Shown: positions 8,774-16,658 of the stretch, piece after piece
Layout: each line of letters starts with the position of its first letter
How positions within the stretch are numbered: position 1 is the first letter of the stretch
The notes under the pieces: generated by a model
What the model saw: the letters and a program-made list of their open reading frames with translations, nothing else
Told to the model about the DNA's origin: nothing
Databases searched by the model: none
Source of the DNA: Oscillospiraceae bacterium
GTDB taxonomy: Bacteria > Bacillota > Clostridia > UBA1212 > SIG427
DNA: 64,000 nt
Direction: 5' to 3'
Assembly (NCBI GenBank): GCA_015069135.1
Contig: SVJE01000004.1
Span: 62,001 to 126,000 of the forward strand
Position numbers and translations under genes: made by a program

Positions 8774-10441
8774 TTAGTTACCTACCTTTGTTATCAAATC
8801 ATCTACAGAGCCTTGGGGCGGTAGCATTGGAAGCACCAGTTCATCTTTGTCTATGGTGCAATCAATTACATAAGGTCCTTCATGGTAAAATGCATTATTA
8901 AGTGCGTCCTCAAGTTCAGCTGTTGAATTTACTTTTTCACCTGTGGCGCCGAAAGCCTTAGCCAGTGCTACAAAGTCAGTCTTACGACAAAGCTCCGTGT
9001 TGGAATAATGTCTGTTAAAAAACAGTGTTTGCCACTGGCGTACCATACCTAACACACCATTGTTCATTATGAGAATAACTACAGGCACATTATATGTAAC
9101 CAAAGTTGCCAGCTCGTTTAAGCTCATGCCGAAACTACCATCGCCTGTAATTAAAACAGTTCTTTTACCGGTTCCCATAGAGGCTCCCATAGCAGCACCT
9201 AAACCAAAGCCCATAGTGCCGAGACCGCCACTGGAAATAAACTGCCTTTTACCGGTGAACTTAAGATACTGGGCAGACCAAACCTGATGTTGACCTACGT
9301 CTGTGGCAACAGGCGTATTGTCACCTATGTATTTATTAAGTGTAAGAATTACATTTTTAGGTGTCATGCCACCACGATTGTCAGCATGCTCACATCCGGC
9401 TTTCTTGTAAGAAGCAATCTCCTCATTCCATTCCGGATGTTTAGCCTCATTTATAAGAGGCAACAACTTCTGTAAAGTCATTTTAACGTCAGCCCTTAAT
9501 GTATGGTGAGCATAAATTGTTTTATTAAGTTCGGAGCCGTCAATATCAATGTGAACAATGTTGGCTTTTTCTGCAAATTTAAGCTTGTCTCCGGTAACCC
9601 GGTCGTTGAAGCGCACACCTAAAGCAATAATCAGATCGGCATTATTCATAGCTGTAGTTGATGCGTAATCACCGTGCATTCCCTGCATACCTAAAAATCT
9701 CGGATGATGTGAGGGAAGGGCCGAGAGTCCCATCATGGTAGAGCCTAAAGGGGCGTCAATCTTTTCTGCCAGCTCCAGCATTTCGTCACAGGCGTCTCCG
9801 GAAACAATACCGCCGCCAAAGAATATAAAGGGTCGTTGTGCTTTGTTTATACATTCTGCCGCCTCTTGAATACGAATATCTTTAGCTGCAAATTTTTCTT
9901 CCGGTAAAATGCGTGGTTTAACCTCATATTCACACATGGCTACCTGTACATCTTTGGGAACATCAATTAAAACAGGGCCGGGACGACCGGACATAGCAAG
10001 GCGAAAAGCTTCTCTTACTGTGTCAGCCAATTCTTCAACGGAAGCTACAAAATAGTTATGCTTAGTAATAGGTAATGTAATGCCTGTAATATCTATTTCC
10101 TGGAAACTGTCAGAACCAATCTGGGAAGTGGAAACATTTCCCGTGATTGCAACTAAAGGTACAGAATCAAGGTGTGCTGTGGCAATTCCGGTAACCAAAT
10201 TAGTAGCTCCGGGACCTGATGTGGCAATAACAACACCAACCTTACCGGTAGCTCTTGCATAACCATCTGCTGCGTGGGCAGCTCCTTGCTCGTGAGCAGT
10301 AAGAACATGCTTGATTTCTTTACTATATTTATAAAGAGAATCATAAACATCAAGAATCTGACCTCCGGGATAACCGAAGACCAGATCTGTGCCTTGTTCT
10401 ATTAAAGTTTTAATTATAATGTCTGCACCACTTAACAGCAT
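8774..10441 (-). CDS. ilvB: Acetolactate synthase large (catalytic) subunit
   Basis: 555 residues, the usual length. ThDP-dependent enzyme: catalytic glutamate in LTAHEQGAAHAADGYARATGKVG (residues about 44-66), central FAD-binding-type domain, and C-terminal ThDP/Mg motif GDGSFGMSLNEL...NNGVLGM. It condenses two pyruvates to 2-acetolactate, or pyruvate and 2-oxobutyrate to acetohydroxybutyrate, the first shared step to valine, leucine and isoleucine. Placed after leuB with a 5-nt gap and before ilvN, its regulatory subunit. Confidence 0.97.
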   Translation of the reverse strand: MLLSGADIIIKTLIEQGTDLVFGYPGGQILDVYDSLYKYSKEIKHVLTAHEQGAAHAADGYARATGKVGVVIATSGPGATNLVTGIATAHLDSVPLVAITGNVSTSQIGSDSFQEIDITGITLPITKHNYFVASVEELADTVREAFRLAMSGRPGPVLIDVPKDVQVAMCEYEVKPRILPEEKFAAKDIRIQEAAECINKAQRPFIFFGGGIVSGDACDEMLELAEKIDAPLGSTMMGLSALPSHHPRFLGMQGMHGDYASTTAMNNADLIIALGVRFNDRVTGDKLKFAEKANIVHIDIDGSELNKTIYAHHTLRADVKMTLQKLLPLINEAKHPEWNEEIASYKKAGCEHADNRGGMTPKNVILTLNKYIGDNTPVATDVGQHQVWSAQYLKFTGKRQFISSGGLGTMGFGLGAAMGASMGTGKRTVLITGDGSFGMSLNELATLVTYNVPVVILIMNNGVLGMVRQWQTLFFNRHYSNTELCRKTDFVALAKAFGATGEKVNSTAELEDALNNAFYHEGPYVIDCTIDKDELVLPMLPPQGSVDDLITKVGN

Positions 10442-10446
10442 TAAAA

Positions 10447-11544
10447 TTATTCCTTTCTAAGATTCTCTACAATAAGGTCACCACACTGACTGCAACCGAT
10501 TTTTGTACAAGCCAGAGCTTCATTTTCGTCAGCCGGTAAAATGTCAGCTGTGCGATAGCCTTTATCAAGTATAACAGATATTGCCCTTTCAATACAATCC
10601 GCCTCTTCAGCCATATCAAAACTGAACCTTAACATCATGGCAGCGGATAAAATTGTACCAATAGGATTTGCAATGTTTTTTCCTGCAATGTCAGGGGCAG
10701 AACCGTGAATGGGTTCGTATAAGCCACAGGATGTTCCGCCTAAACTGGATGATGGAATCATTCCGATAGAGCCTGTAATCATGGAAGCCTCATCAGAAAG
10801 AATATCACCAAACATATTCTCTGTAACAATTACATCAAACTGAGAAGGATCCTTTACAATCTGCATAGCACAATTATCTACAAGCATATGGGTCAGAGTT
10901 ACCTCAGGATACTCTGAAGCTAACTTAATCATAATGGACTTCCAAAGACGGCTGGAATCCAACACGTTACTTTTTTCAACAGAACAAAGCTTTTTGTTAC
11001 GCTTAAGGGCAGTTTCAAAGCCTATACGACCAATTCTTTCAATTTCAGATTCGGTATATTGAAGCACATCAACAGCTTTCTGCTCACCGTTTTCTTCAAA
11101 AGTTTTATGCTCTCCAAAATATATACCACCAATAAGTTCACGGACGATTATAAAATCAATACCTTTGTCTACAATTGACTTCCTTAATGGGGAAGCGGAT
11201 GCCAGCTGTGGCCATATTTTAGCAGGACGGTTGTTACTGTAAACACCCATGCCGGCACGAAGACGAAGCAATCCCTTTTCAGGTCTCATGTGACCGGGTA
11301 CAATATTCCACTTTTCCCCGCCTACAGCACCTAAAAGTACGCTGTCAGAAGCCACGCACTTGTCAAGCATTTCCTGTGGGAGAGGGTCTCCCCATTTATC
11401 TATGGCAATGCCACCCATGTCAACTTCAGTATAAGTAAAAGTATGGCCATACATTTTACCAACTGCATCTAATACCTTTATAGCTTCATTTATAATCTCG
11501 GGACCAATACCATCGCCGGGAATAATTGCAATATTTTTATTCAT
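10447..11544 (-). CDS. leuB: 3-isopropylmalate dehydrogenase
   Basis: 365 residues. Typical N-terminus [13 protein letters not shown], substrate loop [11 protein letters not shown], metal-binding [17 protein letters not shown] and NAD-binding [18 protein letters not shown] motifs. It oxidises and decarboxylates 3-isopropylmalate to 4-methyl-2-oxopentanoate with NAD+, the third committed leucine step. Overlaps the 3' end of leuD by 8 nt, consistent with translational coupling. Confidence 0.97.
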
Positions 11545-12034
11545 TTTTGCTTTCCCCTTTCAAAGAAGCCAGCAAACCACCGGCCTTGATTATATTCTGA
11601 ATAAAAGGTGGGAAAGGTTGAGCCATGTATTCCTTACCGGAAGTGAGATTTGAAATTTTACCGGTATCGAAATCCACCTTAACTTCATCGCCGACCTGTA
11701 TTTCTTCAGCAGCTTCAACACACTCCAGAATAGGAAGACCGATGTTTATGGCATTACGGTAAAATATTCTGGCGAAACTTTTGGCTATTACGCAGCCTGT
11801 ACCACAGGTTTTAATTACTAAAGGTGCATGTTCACGGGAAGAACCGCAACCAAAATTCCAACCGGCTACAATTACATCTCCGTCTTTTACTTCTTTCACA
11901 AAATTCTTGTCTATATCTTCCATACAGTGCTGAGCAAGTTCTTTTGCATCAGGTGTATTTAAGTAACGGGCAGGAATGATTACATCTGTATCTACATTAT
12001 CGGGATACTTAAAAACTTTACCTTGTGTATTCAT
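11537..12034 (-). CDS. leuD: 3-isopropylmalate dehydratase small subunit
   Basis: 165 residues from the ATG at 12034, 1 nt after the leuC stop; a 14-codon upstream extension would overlap leuC and lacks similarity. Aconitase swivel domain with [15 protein letters not shown] and [15 protein letters not shown]. With LeuC it isomerises 2- to 3-isopropylmalate. Short (archaeal/bacterial LeuD2-like) form without extra domains. Confidence 0.96.
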
Positions 12035-12035
12035 T

Positions 12036-13295
12036 TTACGCCTCCTTGTATTCTGTAATGTAGCCTGTAAGGGCACTGGCTGCCGCAGTGTATGGGGATG
12101 CTAAGTATACTTCGCTTTCTACATGGCCCATACGACCTACAAAGTTACGGTTTGTAGTTGCAACACATTTTTCTCCCGCTGCCAATATTCCCATGTAACC
12201 ACCAAGGCATGGTCCGCAGGTAGGGGTTGAAACCACGGCGCCTGCATCCATGAAGGCTGTTACATAGCCACGCTCAATGCACTCACGCATTATCTGCATT
12301 GTGGCCGGGATTATAATAACGCGGATGCCATCAGCAACCTTTTTACCGTTGAGGATTTTGTAGGCTGCCTCCATATCTTCCATACGACCATTGGTACAGC
12401 TTCCTATAACTACCTGGTCAATTTTTATGTGGGAAAGCTCTTTGGCAGGCTTTGTATTTTCAGGAAGGTGAGGGCAGGCTACTGTTGGTAAAATGGAACA
12501 TAAATCTATGTCAATTGTTTTTTCATATTCAGCATCCTCATCAGCTTCATATATAACCGGGGTACGCTCACAGCGACCTTCCATGTATTCCTTTGTTTTT
12601 TCATCTACAGGGAAAATTCCGTTTTTAGCACCGGCTTCAATTGCCATGTTGCAGATACAAAGTCTGTCATCTATAGAAAGGGAAGAAACACCCTCTCCCG
12701 AAAACTCCATACTTTTGTATAAAGCTCCGTCAACACCTATCATACCGATAATAGTGAGGATTACATCTTTACCGCTACAGTTAGAAGGTAACTTTCCTGT
12801 AAGGTTAAATTTAATTGCAGCAGGAACCTTAAACCAAGCCATACCTGTCGCCATTCCGGCAGCCATATCAGTGCTTCCTACACCTGTGGCGAAGGCACCT
12901 AAGGCACCGTAAGTACAAGTGTGGCTGTCAGCGCCTATAATACAGTCGCCTGCAGTAACAACACCTTGTTCAGGAAGAAGGGCATGTTCAATACCCATTT
13001 TACCAACGTCGTAAAAATGACTTACACAATGTGAGCAGGCAAATTCTCTGCAAGTTTTGGACTGTTCAGCTGCTTTAATATCTTTATTAGGAACAAAGTG
13101 ATCAAGCACTATAGCTATTCTGTCCTTATCAAAAACTTCTGTAAATCCTGCTTTTTTAAATTCGTTGACAGCTACAGGAGTTGTAATATCATTTCCCAGA
13201 ACTATATCAAGGCTGGCGTTAATAAGTTGTCCCGGTACTACTTTATCAAGACCGGCATGAGCAGCCAATATTTTTTGTGTCATTGTCATTCCCAT
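12036..13295 (-). CDS. leuC: 3-isopropylmalate dehydratase large subunit
   Basis: 419 residues from the ATG at 13295, which has a GAGGTG site 6 nt upstream ([15 protein letters not shown]). Aconitase-type [4Fe-4S] enzyme: cysteines in GSCTNGR and in [14 protein letters not shown] ligate the cluster; [23 protein letters not shown] is the conserved catalytic stretch. Cytosolic, oxygen-sensitive, works with LeuD. Of the LeuC2 class (about 420 rather than 465 residues), matching the short LeuD. Confidence 0.96.
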
Positions 13296-13309
13296 AAAAA
13301 ACACCTCTT

Positions 13310-14980
13310 TTACTTTACATTAATCATGTTGTTATATGCGCTTAACAACGCATTGGCACCGGCATGAATAATGTCAGTGTCTGTTCCTACACCCCAGTTC
13401 ATTGCGCCATCGGGAGCTTTAATACCGATATAAGCTGCAGCCACAGAACCGGAACCTCGTTCCTGCATACTGTGCTCTGTATAAACTTGCAATTCGTATT
13501 CTGCTCCTGTATATGTTTTGAGAGCATTGCTGACAGCGTCCAGAGAACCGTTTCCGGAAGCTTTAACTGTAGTAGGAATTCCGTCTTTAACAAAATCTAT
13601 TTCGATTTCTACACCATTACCACGCCTGAAGAAGTGCATATCTCCTACAGAAATTGCAGATGCGTGGAGGAAGTAATTGTTTTTGAATATTTCCAGAACT
13701 TCTGCAGGCTTAAGCTCTTTATGAAGCTGGTCTGAAACACCTTTGCAAAGATAGCTTAAGTGTTCCTTCATGCCGGCAGGCAGAACATACCCATAGTTCT
13801 GTTCCAGCAAGTATCCGATACCGCCTTTGCCACTCTGGGAGTTAACTCTTATTACATCTGCATCGTAAGTTCTGCTGATGTCGTGAGGATCAAGCGGAAT
13901 ATATGGTACATTCCACTGATGTAGCTCCTTTTCTTCTCTGTATTTCATACCCTTGGCAATGGCATCCTGATGACTTCCGGAAAATGCTGCAAATACCAGA
14001 GCACCGGCATAGGGAGCTCTTTCGTTTACTTTCATACCTGTAGTTTTTTCGTATTTTTCTACCAGGTAAGGCATATTGGAAAAATCAAGTTTAGGATCCA
14101 CACCGTGGGTGTACATATTCATTGCTAATGTAATAATGTCCACATTACCTGTACGCTCGCCGTTGCCGAAAAGTGTTCCTTCTACACGGTCAGCACCGGC
14201 TAAAAGTGCCAGCTCAGTATCAGCCACTCCTGTACCTCTGTCGTTATGAGGGTGTAGGGAGAGGGTAACGTACTCTCTGTATTTTAAGTTTTCACTTATG
14301 TATTCCACCTGGCTTGCATAAATGTGCGGAAGACTCATTTCTACAGTAACCGGCAGATTTATAATTACATTATTTGTTTCAGATGGCTCTAACACATCCA
14401 ACACAGCATTACAAACTTCCAGAGCATATTCGGGTTCTGTACCTGTGAAACTCTCCGGTGAATACTCAAAACGGAAATTTCCTTCATACTCTGAAGCTAA
14501 CTTTTTTACTAGCTTTGCACCATCTACCGCAATTTTTTTTATTTCGTCTTTAGACTTCTTAAAAACCTGCTCACGCTGTGCCACACTTACTGAGTTGTAG
14601 AAATGTATAATTGCACTGGGTGCACCTTTACAGGCGTCAAAAGTTTTCCTGATTATGTGTTCTCTGCACTGAGTAAGCACCTGGACTGTAACGTCGTCAG
14701 GAATCATTTTACCGTCAATTAATGTGCGCAAAAACTCATACTCAGTTTCACTGGCTGCCGGGAAACCTACCTCGATTTCCTTAAAACCAACATCTAAGAG
14801 TACCTTAAAATACTCAAGCTTCTCTTCCAGACTCATGGGTATTACCAGACTCTGGTTGCCGTCACGCATATCAACACTACACCACACCGGTGGCTTTTCA
14901 ATGTGATCTTTTGTTACCCATTTGTTGTAAGTGCCCGGTGGGGTAAAATATCCTACTTTGTACTTACTTGCATCCATCAT
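13310..14980 (-). CDS. leuA: 2-isopropylmalate synthase (LeuA2/yeast-type)
   Basis: 556 residues from the ATG at 14980, preceded by AAAGGAG about 11 nt upstream; an extension to 15070 would run through the leader terminator. DRE-TIM metallolyase: [13 protein letters not shown] near residues 33-45 starts the TIM barrel, [13 protein letters not shown] and [10 protein letters not shown] carry metal and substrate residues, and the last ~130 residues form the leucine-binding regulatory LeuA dimer domain. It condenses acetyl-CoA with 3-methyl-2-oxobutanoate, committing carbon to leucine. First gene of the operon, with an attenuator-like leader. Confidence 0.97.
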
Positions 14981-15008
14981 TTTTTTGATTTCTCCTTTAT
15001 GAAGGGTA

Positions 15009-15043
15009 TAAAAAAACGCCTCAAAGTTCTGTCCTTTGAGACG
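15009..15043 (-). terminator. Leader terminator (attenuator) upstream of leuA
   Basis: Minus-strand stem cgtctcaaag (15043-15034) / ctttgaggcg (15026-15017), one U-G wobble, 7-nt loop, then T6-A-T. It lies between promoter and leuA start, so read-through must be controlled. A competing pairing of ccttgag (15082-15076) with ctcaaagg (15040-15033) would break it, and a gaggt/acctc hairpin (15078-15062) could compete with that. Confidence 0.85.
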
Positions 15044-15089
15044 GTGTAATTTCAACACTGGAGGTACCACTCACCTCAAGGTTCTGCAT
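15021..15089 (-). CDS. Putative 22-residue leader peptide of the leu operon, apparently leaderless
   Basis: The ATG at 15089 is 8 nt downstream of the last base of a perfect -10 box, so transcription should start within a base or two of it and there is no room for a ribosome-binding site. The ORF reads MQNLEVSGTSS... and ends ...RTEL with stop TGA at 15023-15021. It holds two Leu (CTT) codons, codon 4 within the candidate antiterminator strand and codon 22 in the descending arm of the terminator. Geometry suits ribosome-dependent attenuation. No homology recognised; coding status is an inference from position. Confidence 0.5.
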   Translation of the reverse strand: MQNLEVSGTSSVEITPSQRTEL

Positions 15090-15096
15090 GTGGCTT

Positions 15097-15125
15097 ATTA
15101 TATCATTGGTAAAATGTAGTGTCAA
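15097..15125 (-). promoter_or_regulatory. Consensus promoter of the leu-ilv operon
   Basis: -35 TTGACA (15125-15120), exactly 17 nt, -10 TATAAT (15102-15097), both perfect. Predicted start at 15090-15089. The spacer contains a copy of ATTTTACC. Confidence 0.85.
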
Positions 15126-15217
15126 TGTGGCGGTGGCGGGCTGCTGGGGTTTTCCGGCACTGTAAAATTTTCGTATTTCCCATTTTACAGTACTTTAAAT
15201 CAATGGAAACCGGAATA

Positions 15218-15246
15218 TTGTAACTTCTTTTTTAATAGTGTATAAT
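15218..15246 (+). promoter_or_regulatory. Promoter for the MarR-FakB/fakA operon
   Basis: -35 TTGTAA (15218-15223), 17 nt, -10 TATAAT (15241-15246); predicted start near 15253, about 56 nt before the ATG. Divergent from the leu promoter, whose -35 is ~90 bp away. Confidence 0.7.
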
Positions 15247-15251
15247 TAACC

Positions 15252-15267
15252 TGTTGACAAATCAACA
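15252..15267. promoter_or_regulatory. Candidate MarR-type operator at the fakB transcription start
   Basis: TGTTGA-CAAA-TCAACA, a perfect 6-bp dyad with 4-bp spacer, sits on the predicted start site. A second dyad, gacaaa...ttttgtc, overlaps it (15257-15277). Size and place fit autorepression by the MarR domain encoded immediately downstream. Confidence 0.45.
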
Positions 15268-15308
15268 AATTTTGTCGGCAAATCTTGGAAGAGGAGTTTT
15301 TTACTTAT

Positions 15309-16658
15309 ATGACCAGTAGATTCGAACACTTTTCTGTTGTCATTACAAATGTATATCGTCAGTGGATGAAAATTTCTGCAGCAGAGCTTGAGAAGTATGA
15401 AATCCGTGGACAATATGCTATTTTCATTGTAACAATGCAGCGATATCCTGACGGAGTGTCTGCGGAAGATCTGGCCGATTTGTGTGGCAGAGAAAAAATA
15501 GACGTAATTCGGTCCATGACTATATTAACAAGAAAAGGTCTCGTGGAGAAAAATCCTGCGGACAACGATATATATACCGGTGTGCTTAAGCTTACAGAAG
15601 AAGGTGATAAGCTGGCAACCGTATTAAGAGAAAAAATAAGCTTGGCTGTTGACCTTTCCTGTAAGGGTGTGTCTGCCAGAGACAGGGTGATATTCTTCAG
15701 AACATTGGAAAAAATGTCTAACAATATGCACCTTATTCTTGAGAGGGGCTTACCCTCAGAAAATATTTCTAATAAGAAAGGAACTGATACTATGGGAAAT
15801 TATGTTATTTTTACTGATTCCGGATGTGATATTAAACCTGAAATGTTAGCTGAGTGGGGTGTACCTTACAAGAGCCTTACTTTCAGATTTACTGATGATA
15901 ATGTGGAACATTCCAACGAAGATATGGACGCGTTGACATTTTACAATAAAATGCGTGAGGGAGGCGTGGCAAAGACTGCAGCGGTAAATGTAGATTCTTT
16001 TGCTGCTGATTTTGAGGAAATTCTTAAAAATGGTTTAGATATCCTTTATATCGGATTCTCCAGCGGATTAAGTACTACATATAACAGTGCACGATTAGCG
16101 GCAGACCAGTTAAGAGAAAAATATCCTGAGCGCAAGATTATTACAATAGATACATTGGCAGCTTCTGCAGGTCAGGGCCTTATTGTTTATCTGGCAGTTG
16201 AGCAGAAAAAGAAAGGTGCTACAATAGATGAAGTCAAAGCTTATGTTGAAGACCTTATTCCTCGCATGGGCATCTGGTTTACAGTTGATGATCTTGAGTA
16301 CCTTAAGAGGGGTGGACGTGTAAGTCCTACAGCAGCTTTTGTAGGTAATATGCTTGGTATCAAGCCTGTTTTATACATGGATGATGAGGGTCATCTTACA
16401 CCAAGAATGAAGGTAAGAGGAAGAAAGACAGCAATTAGCACACTTGCTCAGAAATATGCGGAAATGGCTGTAGACCACAGCAACGGAACTGTATTTATTT
16501 CCCATGGTGATTGCATTAAAGATGCTGAATTACTTGCATCTATGCTTAAGGATAAACATGGTGTAGAAGTTAAGGTTATTACAGATGTAGGTCCTGTTAT
16601 CGGTGCTCATTCCGGCCCGGGTACATTGGCTTTATTCTTTGTAGGTACTTCAAGATAG
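15309..16658 (+). CDS. MarR-like winged-helix domain fused to a DegV/FakB fatty-acid-binding protein
   Basis: 449 residues from the ATG at 15309 (AAGAGGAG upstream; a TTG at 15285 is the other option). Residues 1-~150 look like MarR: helices flank a winged HTH (DGVSAEDLADLCGREKIDVIRSMTILTRKGLVEKN). From M162 on (GNYVIFTDSGCDIKPEML) it is a full-length DegV protein: GFSSGLSTTYNSA, DTLAASAGQGL, LEYLKRGGRVS and a final GAHSGPGTLALFF. DegV proteins (FakB) bind a fatty acid for phosphorylation by FakA, encoded 10 nt downstream. An AAAGGA box 9 nt before the M162 codon could give a separate FakB. The joined form suggests a lipid-responsive regulator, comparable in logic to FabT, a MarR protein of fatty-acid synthesis. 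Function of the fusion is inferred. Confidence 0.85.
   Translation: MTSRFEHFSVVITNVYRQWMKISAAELEKYEIRGQYAIFIVTMQRYPDGVSAEDLADLCGREKIDVIRSMTILTRKGLVEKNPADNDIYTGVLKLTEEGDKLATVLREKISLAVDLSCKGVSARDRVIFFRTLEKMSNNMHLILERGLPSENISNKKGTDTMGNYVIFTDSGCDIKPEMLAEWGVPYKSLTFRFTDDNVEHSNEDMDALTFYNKMREGGVAKTAAVNVDSFAADFEEILKNGLDILYIGFSSGLSTTYNSARLAADQLREKYPERKIITIDTLAASAGQGLIVYLAVEQKKKGATIDEVKAYVEDLIPRMGIWFTVDDLEYLKRGGRVSPTAAFVGNMLGIKPVLYMDDEGHLTPRMKVRGRKTAISTLAQKYAEMAVDHSNGTVFISHGDCIKDAELLASMLKDKHGVEVKVITDVGPVIGAHSGPGTLALFFVGTSR

Follow-up and report, generated by a model that had tools for sequence, protein, structure and literature searches.

How can a leucine biosynthesis operon be preceded by a consensus promoter that fires almost directly into a transcription terminator, and does the short leader between them still sense anything? 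This question is raised by the operon leuA-leuC-leuD-leuB-ilvB (8774-14980) in the window, i.e., the whole stretch of 64,000 nt of DNA that was analysed. A sequence-only reading of the locus had proposed either a compact ribosome-mediated attenuator acting on a leaderless mRNA or a minimal tRNA-sensing RNA. T-boxes are thought to require stem I for tRNA recruitment. Here, we describe the leader, its relation to the leucine T-boxes of related bacteria and the occurrence of similar leaders in other genomes.

Anatomy of the leu leader

The region contains the following elements:

15097-15125, minus strand: sigma-70 promoter TTGACA-17-TATAAT with an extended -10 TG, 12/12 matches
15021-15089, minus strand: 22-codon ORF, MQNLEVSGTSSVEITPSQRTEL, opened by an ATG near the predicted transcript start
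15010-15043, minus strand: intrinsic terminator, 10 bp followed by seven T's
13310-14980, minus strand: leuA, first gene of the operon

The promoter is as perfect as originally described, with the -35 TTGACA at 15125-15120 and the -10 TATAAT at 15102-15097 separated by a 17-nt spacer. According to the purine rule, transcription is predicted to start at A15091 or A15089, which would place the ATG (15089-15087) at +3 or +1, respectively; the ATG is thus predicted to lie at or near the transcript start, and the ORF does end (TGA, 15023-15021) within the descending arm of the terminator. The terminator hairpin, CGTCTCAAAG-GACAGAA-CTTTGAGGCG, spans 15043-15017 with 10 bp and is followed by a T-tract of seven residues (15016-15010), one more than had been counted. 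The order is therefore promoter, 80-nt leader, terminator and leuA, whose ATG at 14980 is preceded by the ribosome binding site AAAGGAG. About 37 nt lie between the end of the terminator and this ATG, and the distance of 110 nt to leuA quoted for the ORF holds, approximately, only from the ORF start. Both the promoter and the terminator score beyond shuffles in the chance test. Upstream of its ATG the leuA frame continues without a stop across the terminator as far as GTG 15070 (13310-15070, minus strand); this is probably chance, since a good ribosome binding site sits before ATG 14980.

The short open reading frame and translational attenuation

An ATG located 5-10 nt past the -10 box is expected by chance in about one in nine cases (~11%) and, given the ATG, a frame of at least 22 codons is open in 27% of dinucleotide shuffles. 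Because both its position and its length fall within chance, the 22-codon ORF is probably incidental. Leu codons are 2 of 22, with no run and no excess, a content equalled by 77% of the shuffled open frames.

In attenuators of the pyrBI type, any trailing ribosome opens the terminator. A translation-coupled attenuator of this kind could be envisaged here, in which ribosomes starting at the 5'-terminal ATG would trail RNA polymerase and keep the terminator unfolded; the controlling input would be general translation or coupling, or else leucine acting through the two Leu codons. The window leader shares with the pyrBI type an ORF that spans the leader and runs into the terminator arm, but it has no indications of translation or of a pause-based sensor. 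A partial precedent is the ilv-leu leader of S. aureus, likewise preceding a branched-chain amino acid operon and loosely T-box-like without stem I, where a short ORF and a terminator also occur and the attenuator peptide is leucine-rich and supported by mutants (PMC5794164); the window ORF, in contrast, has two Leu codons in 22. Moreover, the ORF has no Shine-Dalgarno sequence, none of the relatives searched was found to have a matching ORF or short leader, and no such ORF occurs in the truncated leuA leader of L013 described below. There is also an argument of sign: a ribosome stalled at the early Leu codon (codon 4) would occupy the 5' strand of the antiterminator and promote termination during starvation, which runs counter to the needs of the operon and makes leucine attenuation less likely. 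Taken with the ATG position and ORF length, these points make translational coupling unlikely, and the ribosome-mediated leucine attenuator suggested earlier is poorly supported. The same applies to its proposed analogy with actinobacterial leuA leaders: the LEU element likewise precedes leuA and has a short ORF, but a run of Leu codons there pairs with the leuA Shine-Dalgarno sequence, in addition to a pseudoknot (PMC1262725), whereas the window ORF contains no Leu run.

Leucine T-boxes of relatives and homology of the module

The upstream regions of 80 loci encoding LeuA relatives were read, and in most of them a leucine T-box immediately precedes leuA or an operon of which leuA is part. In particular, relatives with ~78-82% identical LeuA have full leucine (CUC-specifier) T-boxes at the matching position; in L014, L020, L066 and L097, the region immediately ahead of leuA passes the gathering score of Rfam RF00230. 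A simple motif could read the specifier in 19 leaders, giving CTC (Leu) in 16 of them and ATC in the remaining three. These T-boxes end in AATTTGAG-TGGTACC-GCGAGTG...CACCCGT-CTCAAAG...CTTTGAG(A/G)CGGG-TTTTT, or a near variant, and the counterpart in the window leader is CCTTGAGGTGAG-TGGTACC-TCCAGTG...ACACCGT-CTCAAAGG...CTTTGAGGCG-TTTTTTT.

A covariance model was built from the antiterminator-terminator modules of 28 relatives, with the window excluded, and it identifies the following element:

15010-15080, minus strand: module of antiterminator and terminator, homologous to leucine T-boxes in relatives

The match (15080-15010) has 37.3 bits and an E-value of 9e-7 over the 64 kb searched, and it is the top match genome-wide, above three full T-boxes of the genome that the model also detects, at 26-28 bits. 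In the Rfam search, no T-box is found in the window at the gathering score, and none within 14800-15400 even at E 10; weak matches on the window to AaHKsRNA82, SpF11 and queA are far under their cut-offs and were rejected. A standard T-box with stem I, which the sequence-only reading had set against its own proposal, is thus not found at this locus, and its remark that there is no room for a stem I holds, since helix A1 follows the predicted start by only ~10 nt. That reading had also pointed to the leuA upstream regions of relatives: the pairing is indeed homologous at the antiterminator-terminator end, but the relatives have full leucine T-boxes.

From the covariance match and the lack of a Rfam T-box, it follows that only the 3' half of a leucine T-box is present in the leader, which lacks stems I, II and III. 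Its origin, missed by the sequence-only reading, is very probably a leucine T-box of the kind found at the matching position in relatives, and the leader is not a novel type of attenuator. With the leucine T-boxes of RF00230 (L005, L014, L020 and L097) it shares the gene, the position, the antiterminator strands, the TGGTACC bulge and the terminator, and it differs from them in having no stems I, II and III or specifier, in the loss of a GCG, in the duplication of a TGAG and in giving no Rfam match. Class II T-boxes with an ultrashort stem I, such as those of actinobacterial ileS, also have a reduced sensor half; in these T-boxes a short stem I persists together with its specifier, and control is exerted on translation (PMC7583486, PMC1262725), whereas the window leader has no stem I at all and possesses a terminator.

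Two other T-boxes met in this survey concern different genes. L086 (G000:C7:243994-244239), a full T-box whose specifier reads CTC (Leu) with the simple motif, precedes L171:3389-5914, which encodes an 842-aa protein in which a xylose-isomerase-like TIM barrel is fused to an acyl-CoA ligase; L087, a second T-box with ATC (Ile), lies ahead of a 476-codon ORF beginning like an XRE-type regulator. These genes may point to branched-chain amino acids made from branched short-chain acids.

What the remnant kept, lost and gained

Within the homologous module the following parts can be recognised:

15070-15081, minus strand: former 5' strand of helix A1 with a tandem TGAG duplication, CCTTGAGGTGAG versus AATTTGAG in relatives
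15063-15069, minus strand: T-box bulge TGGTACC, intact
15041-15062, minus strand: degenerate helix A2, TCCAGTG...ACACCGT versus GCGAGTG...CACCCGT in relatives
15061-15077, minus strand: new 5' hairpin GAGGTG/TACCTC, competitor of the antiterminator
15033-15040, minus strand: 3' strand of helix A1, CTCAAAGG, common to antiterminator and terminator

The TGGTACC at 15069-15063, correctly recognised beforehand as a T-box sequence, has the form UGGN-ACC required of the bulge between helices A1 and A2. The mutually exclusive antiterminator and terminator of a T-box are also present, through the shared strand CTCAAAGG, and both this arrangement and the antiterminator pairing of CCTTGAG(GTGAGTG) with CACCGTCTCAAAGG agree with the earlier description. 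Other parts have changed. Relatives are invariant at the 5' strand of helix A1 (AATTTGAGTGGTACCGCG), and the tandem copy of TGAG in the window creates the 5' hairpin GAGGTG/TACCTC, a pairing already noted that in fact lies at 15077-15061 and not at 15078-15062. The GCG at the start of helix A2, invariant in 28/28 relatives, is TCC in the window, and the conserved G.U wobble at the A2 base (GCG...CGU) is lost. Stem I with its specifier loop is absent from the leader, and so is stem III with its flanking purine string, for which there is no room between the predicted start and A1.

Folding of growing prefixes gives equilibrium energies, not kinetics, and in these terms the 5' hairpin structure (-9.8 kcal/mol) has P ~1.0 until the 3' strand of the antiterminator is made, P for an antiterminator (CCUUGAGGUG paired to CGUCUC-A-AAGG) rises to ~0.7 for a short interval only, and the terminator prevails once it is complete (P ~1). 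At the matching point helix A1 forms with P 0.77 in the window versus ~0.99 in most relatives, and the UG and ACC of the bulge are partly paired in the window, whereas they are mostly open in relatives.

These changes bear on the second proposal of the sequence-only reading, a minimal sensor in which the 3' end of uncharged tRNA would stabilise the antiterminator alone, without stem I. The TGGTACC is intact, with a U for the discriminator A, and fully canonical antiterminators do occur in other leaders that have no stem I (alaS and metS of G959, see below). However, the purine string of stem III and the G.U wobble at the A2 base, described as an aminoacylation-sensing sieve (PMC7583486), are both missing here, and the new hairpin partly sequesters the bulge. 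A tRNA sensor of this kind is thus very unlikely in the window leader, and sensing of the charge is less likely still because the A2 base is damaged.

A probable tRNA-blind partial terminator

The module is homologous to that of relatives, stem I is absent, the terminator is intact and the discriminator features are lost. We consider it likely, taking origin and function together, that the leader is a decapitated leucine T-box, now acting as a tRNA-blind partial terminator; for the mechanism by itself, this is what the balance of evidence favours. In an ancestral tRNA-Leu T-box ahead of leuA, a deletion would have removed everything between a point just past the transcription start and helix A1, i.e., stem I with the specifier, stem II and stem III, so that the promoter would now fire straight into the antiterminator and terminator. 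In each transcript the new 5' hairpin would form first and would in most cases be followed by the terminator, and a minority would read through when CCUUGAGGUG pairs momentarily with the 5' strand of the terminator. The outcome would be a low and roughly constant read-through into leuACDB-ilvB, with any leucine control acting elsewhere, for example on promoter activity. The leader has thus probably stopped sensing tRNA. The deletion itself is inferred from more distant relatives, as the family consists of two genomes and the nearest LeuA of the other is 58% identical. Against this reading, pure decay need not have preserved the bulge or a working alternative antiterminator, both of which are still present. 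Furthermore, a promoter-proximal terminator without a regulator would be costly, and therefore an unseen control may exist.

Two features lie upstream of the leader. An inverted repeat, CTGTAAAAT-N13-ATTTTACAG, at 15160-15190 is a possible operator, and an ORF of 457 aa at 15285-16658 (plus strand) combines a winged-helix-like N-terminal region with a DegV domain. A DNA-binding protein acting at the repeat could control the promoter, leaving the leader as a passive relic. The repeat is a perfect one of 9 bp between two divergent promoters, ~35 bp upstream of the leu -35, and the divergent gene has the HTH-like N-terminus joined to DegV; nevertheless, the repeat is single-copy in the window and inverted repeats of 9 bp are frequent by chance, so that control at this level seems doubtful, with little probability given to it.

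Recurrence in other genomes

Decapitation of T-boxes is not confined to the window. A second leuA case, L013, shows a promoter, ~48 nt and a leu-type terminator, scores 27.9 bits and has also lost the bulge. In the order of L013, 394 genomes were scanned for a promoter followed by a leu-type terminator, and among the matches listed L013 alone is genuine; the others looked like chance or lay inside a full T-box (L131). Since the class-wide pattern AGNGTGGNACC cannot match leucine T-boxes (GAGTGG), GNGTGGNACC was used phylum-wide instead, and 398 Bacillota genomes were scanned for a promoter followed by it within 5-35 nt. After removal of matches in full T-boxes and at ribosome binding sites, the scan yielded, besides the window, the following leaders:

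L172 2379-2500 (G959:C52): alaS leader without stem I
L173/L178 (G959:C3): metS leader without stem I
L174 ~2159-2300 (G830:C6), minus strand: promoter followed directly by GGGTGGTACCGCAG and a terminator
L175 ~2064-2180 (G1030:C10): promoter followed by AGGGTGGTACCGCG, without stem I, shortly before an ilvD ORF

The matches removed were promoter-like words inside full T-boxes, as judged by eye (L102, L105, L143, L144 and L158), and Shine-Dalgarno-like GGAGTGGNACC before genes (L141 and L154-L156). Decapitated leaders are thus rare, a handful in several hundred genomes, as counted by a pattern that required a nearby promoter and leaves other routes of decay uncounted.

The scan of the class of G959 took in 10 genomes. 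In G959, a distant genome, eight other T-boxes are full-length by Rfam (87-126 bits), and the alaS and metS leaders score 30 and 26 bits, respectively. A 12/12 promoter lies 15 nt ahead of GGGTGG at alaS and an 11/12 promoter 9 nt ahead at metS; at alaS the upstream gene ends 74 nt before the bulge, so there is no room for a stem I. Both antiterminators remain canonical and both terminators are kept. In a relative, G1007, the leaders of alaS and metS are complete, their promoters lying 225-242 nt upstream, and on both sides of the gap the two genomes agree in promoter as well as antiterminator sequence (at alaS the aligner misplaced the 5' side of the bulge, which was matched by eye). This agreement indicates that G959 has twice lost the stretch that extends from shortly past the start up to helix A1.

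The G830 leader has a T-box-like antiterminator with a reverse transcriptase-like fragment downstream, and the regulated gene may be displaced. The G1030 ilvD leader retains the bulge and has no evident terminator. The cases look like a decay series, from G959 (antiterminator intact) through the window (A2 damaged) and L013 (bulge lost) to G1030 (terminator lost). As read from these sequences, decapitation is an independent event in a few other bacteria.

The independent truncated leaders in L013 (one) and G959 (two) also argue against an assembly artefact, in which the stem I segment would have been dropped from the contig. The genome consists of 11 contigs with ~93% completeness, and such an omission could be imagined, but the remaining module has diverged as relaxed selection predicts (GCG to TCC, TGAG duplication), beyond the loss of a segment, and we regard an artefact as very improbable.

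Implications

In the papers searched, no account of stem-I-less promoter-proximal T-boxes was found. It is conceivable, though improbable, that decapitated T-boxes are a minimal class and not just relics, in which an antiterminator of ~45 nt at the 5' end senses the pool of uncharged tRNA or is kept by selection as a fixed attenuator; alaS and metS of G959, with their intact consensus, would then be members, and leuA of the window a reworked form. As a caution, TGGNACC together with a terminator does not prove tRNA sensing.

Natural leaders with a promoter, an antiterminator and a terminator but no sensor show a possible fate of a riboswitch after aptamer loss: the terminator survives this loss at essential genes (alaS and metS) and at leuA. 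They also bear on how regulators of essential operons vanish without killing expression. Such leaders are natural deletion mutants with which the tRNA response of the discriminator itself can be addressed, and their recurrence, which was unexpected, opens a direct experimental route to the capacities of a T-box discriminator that has no stem I.
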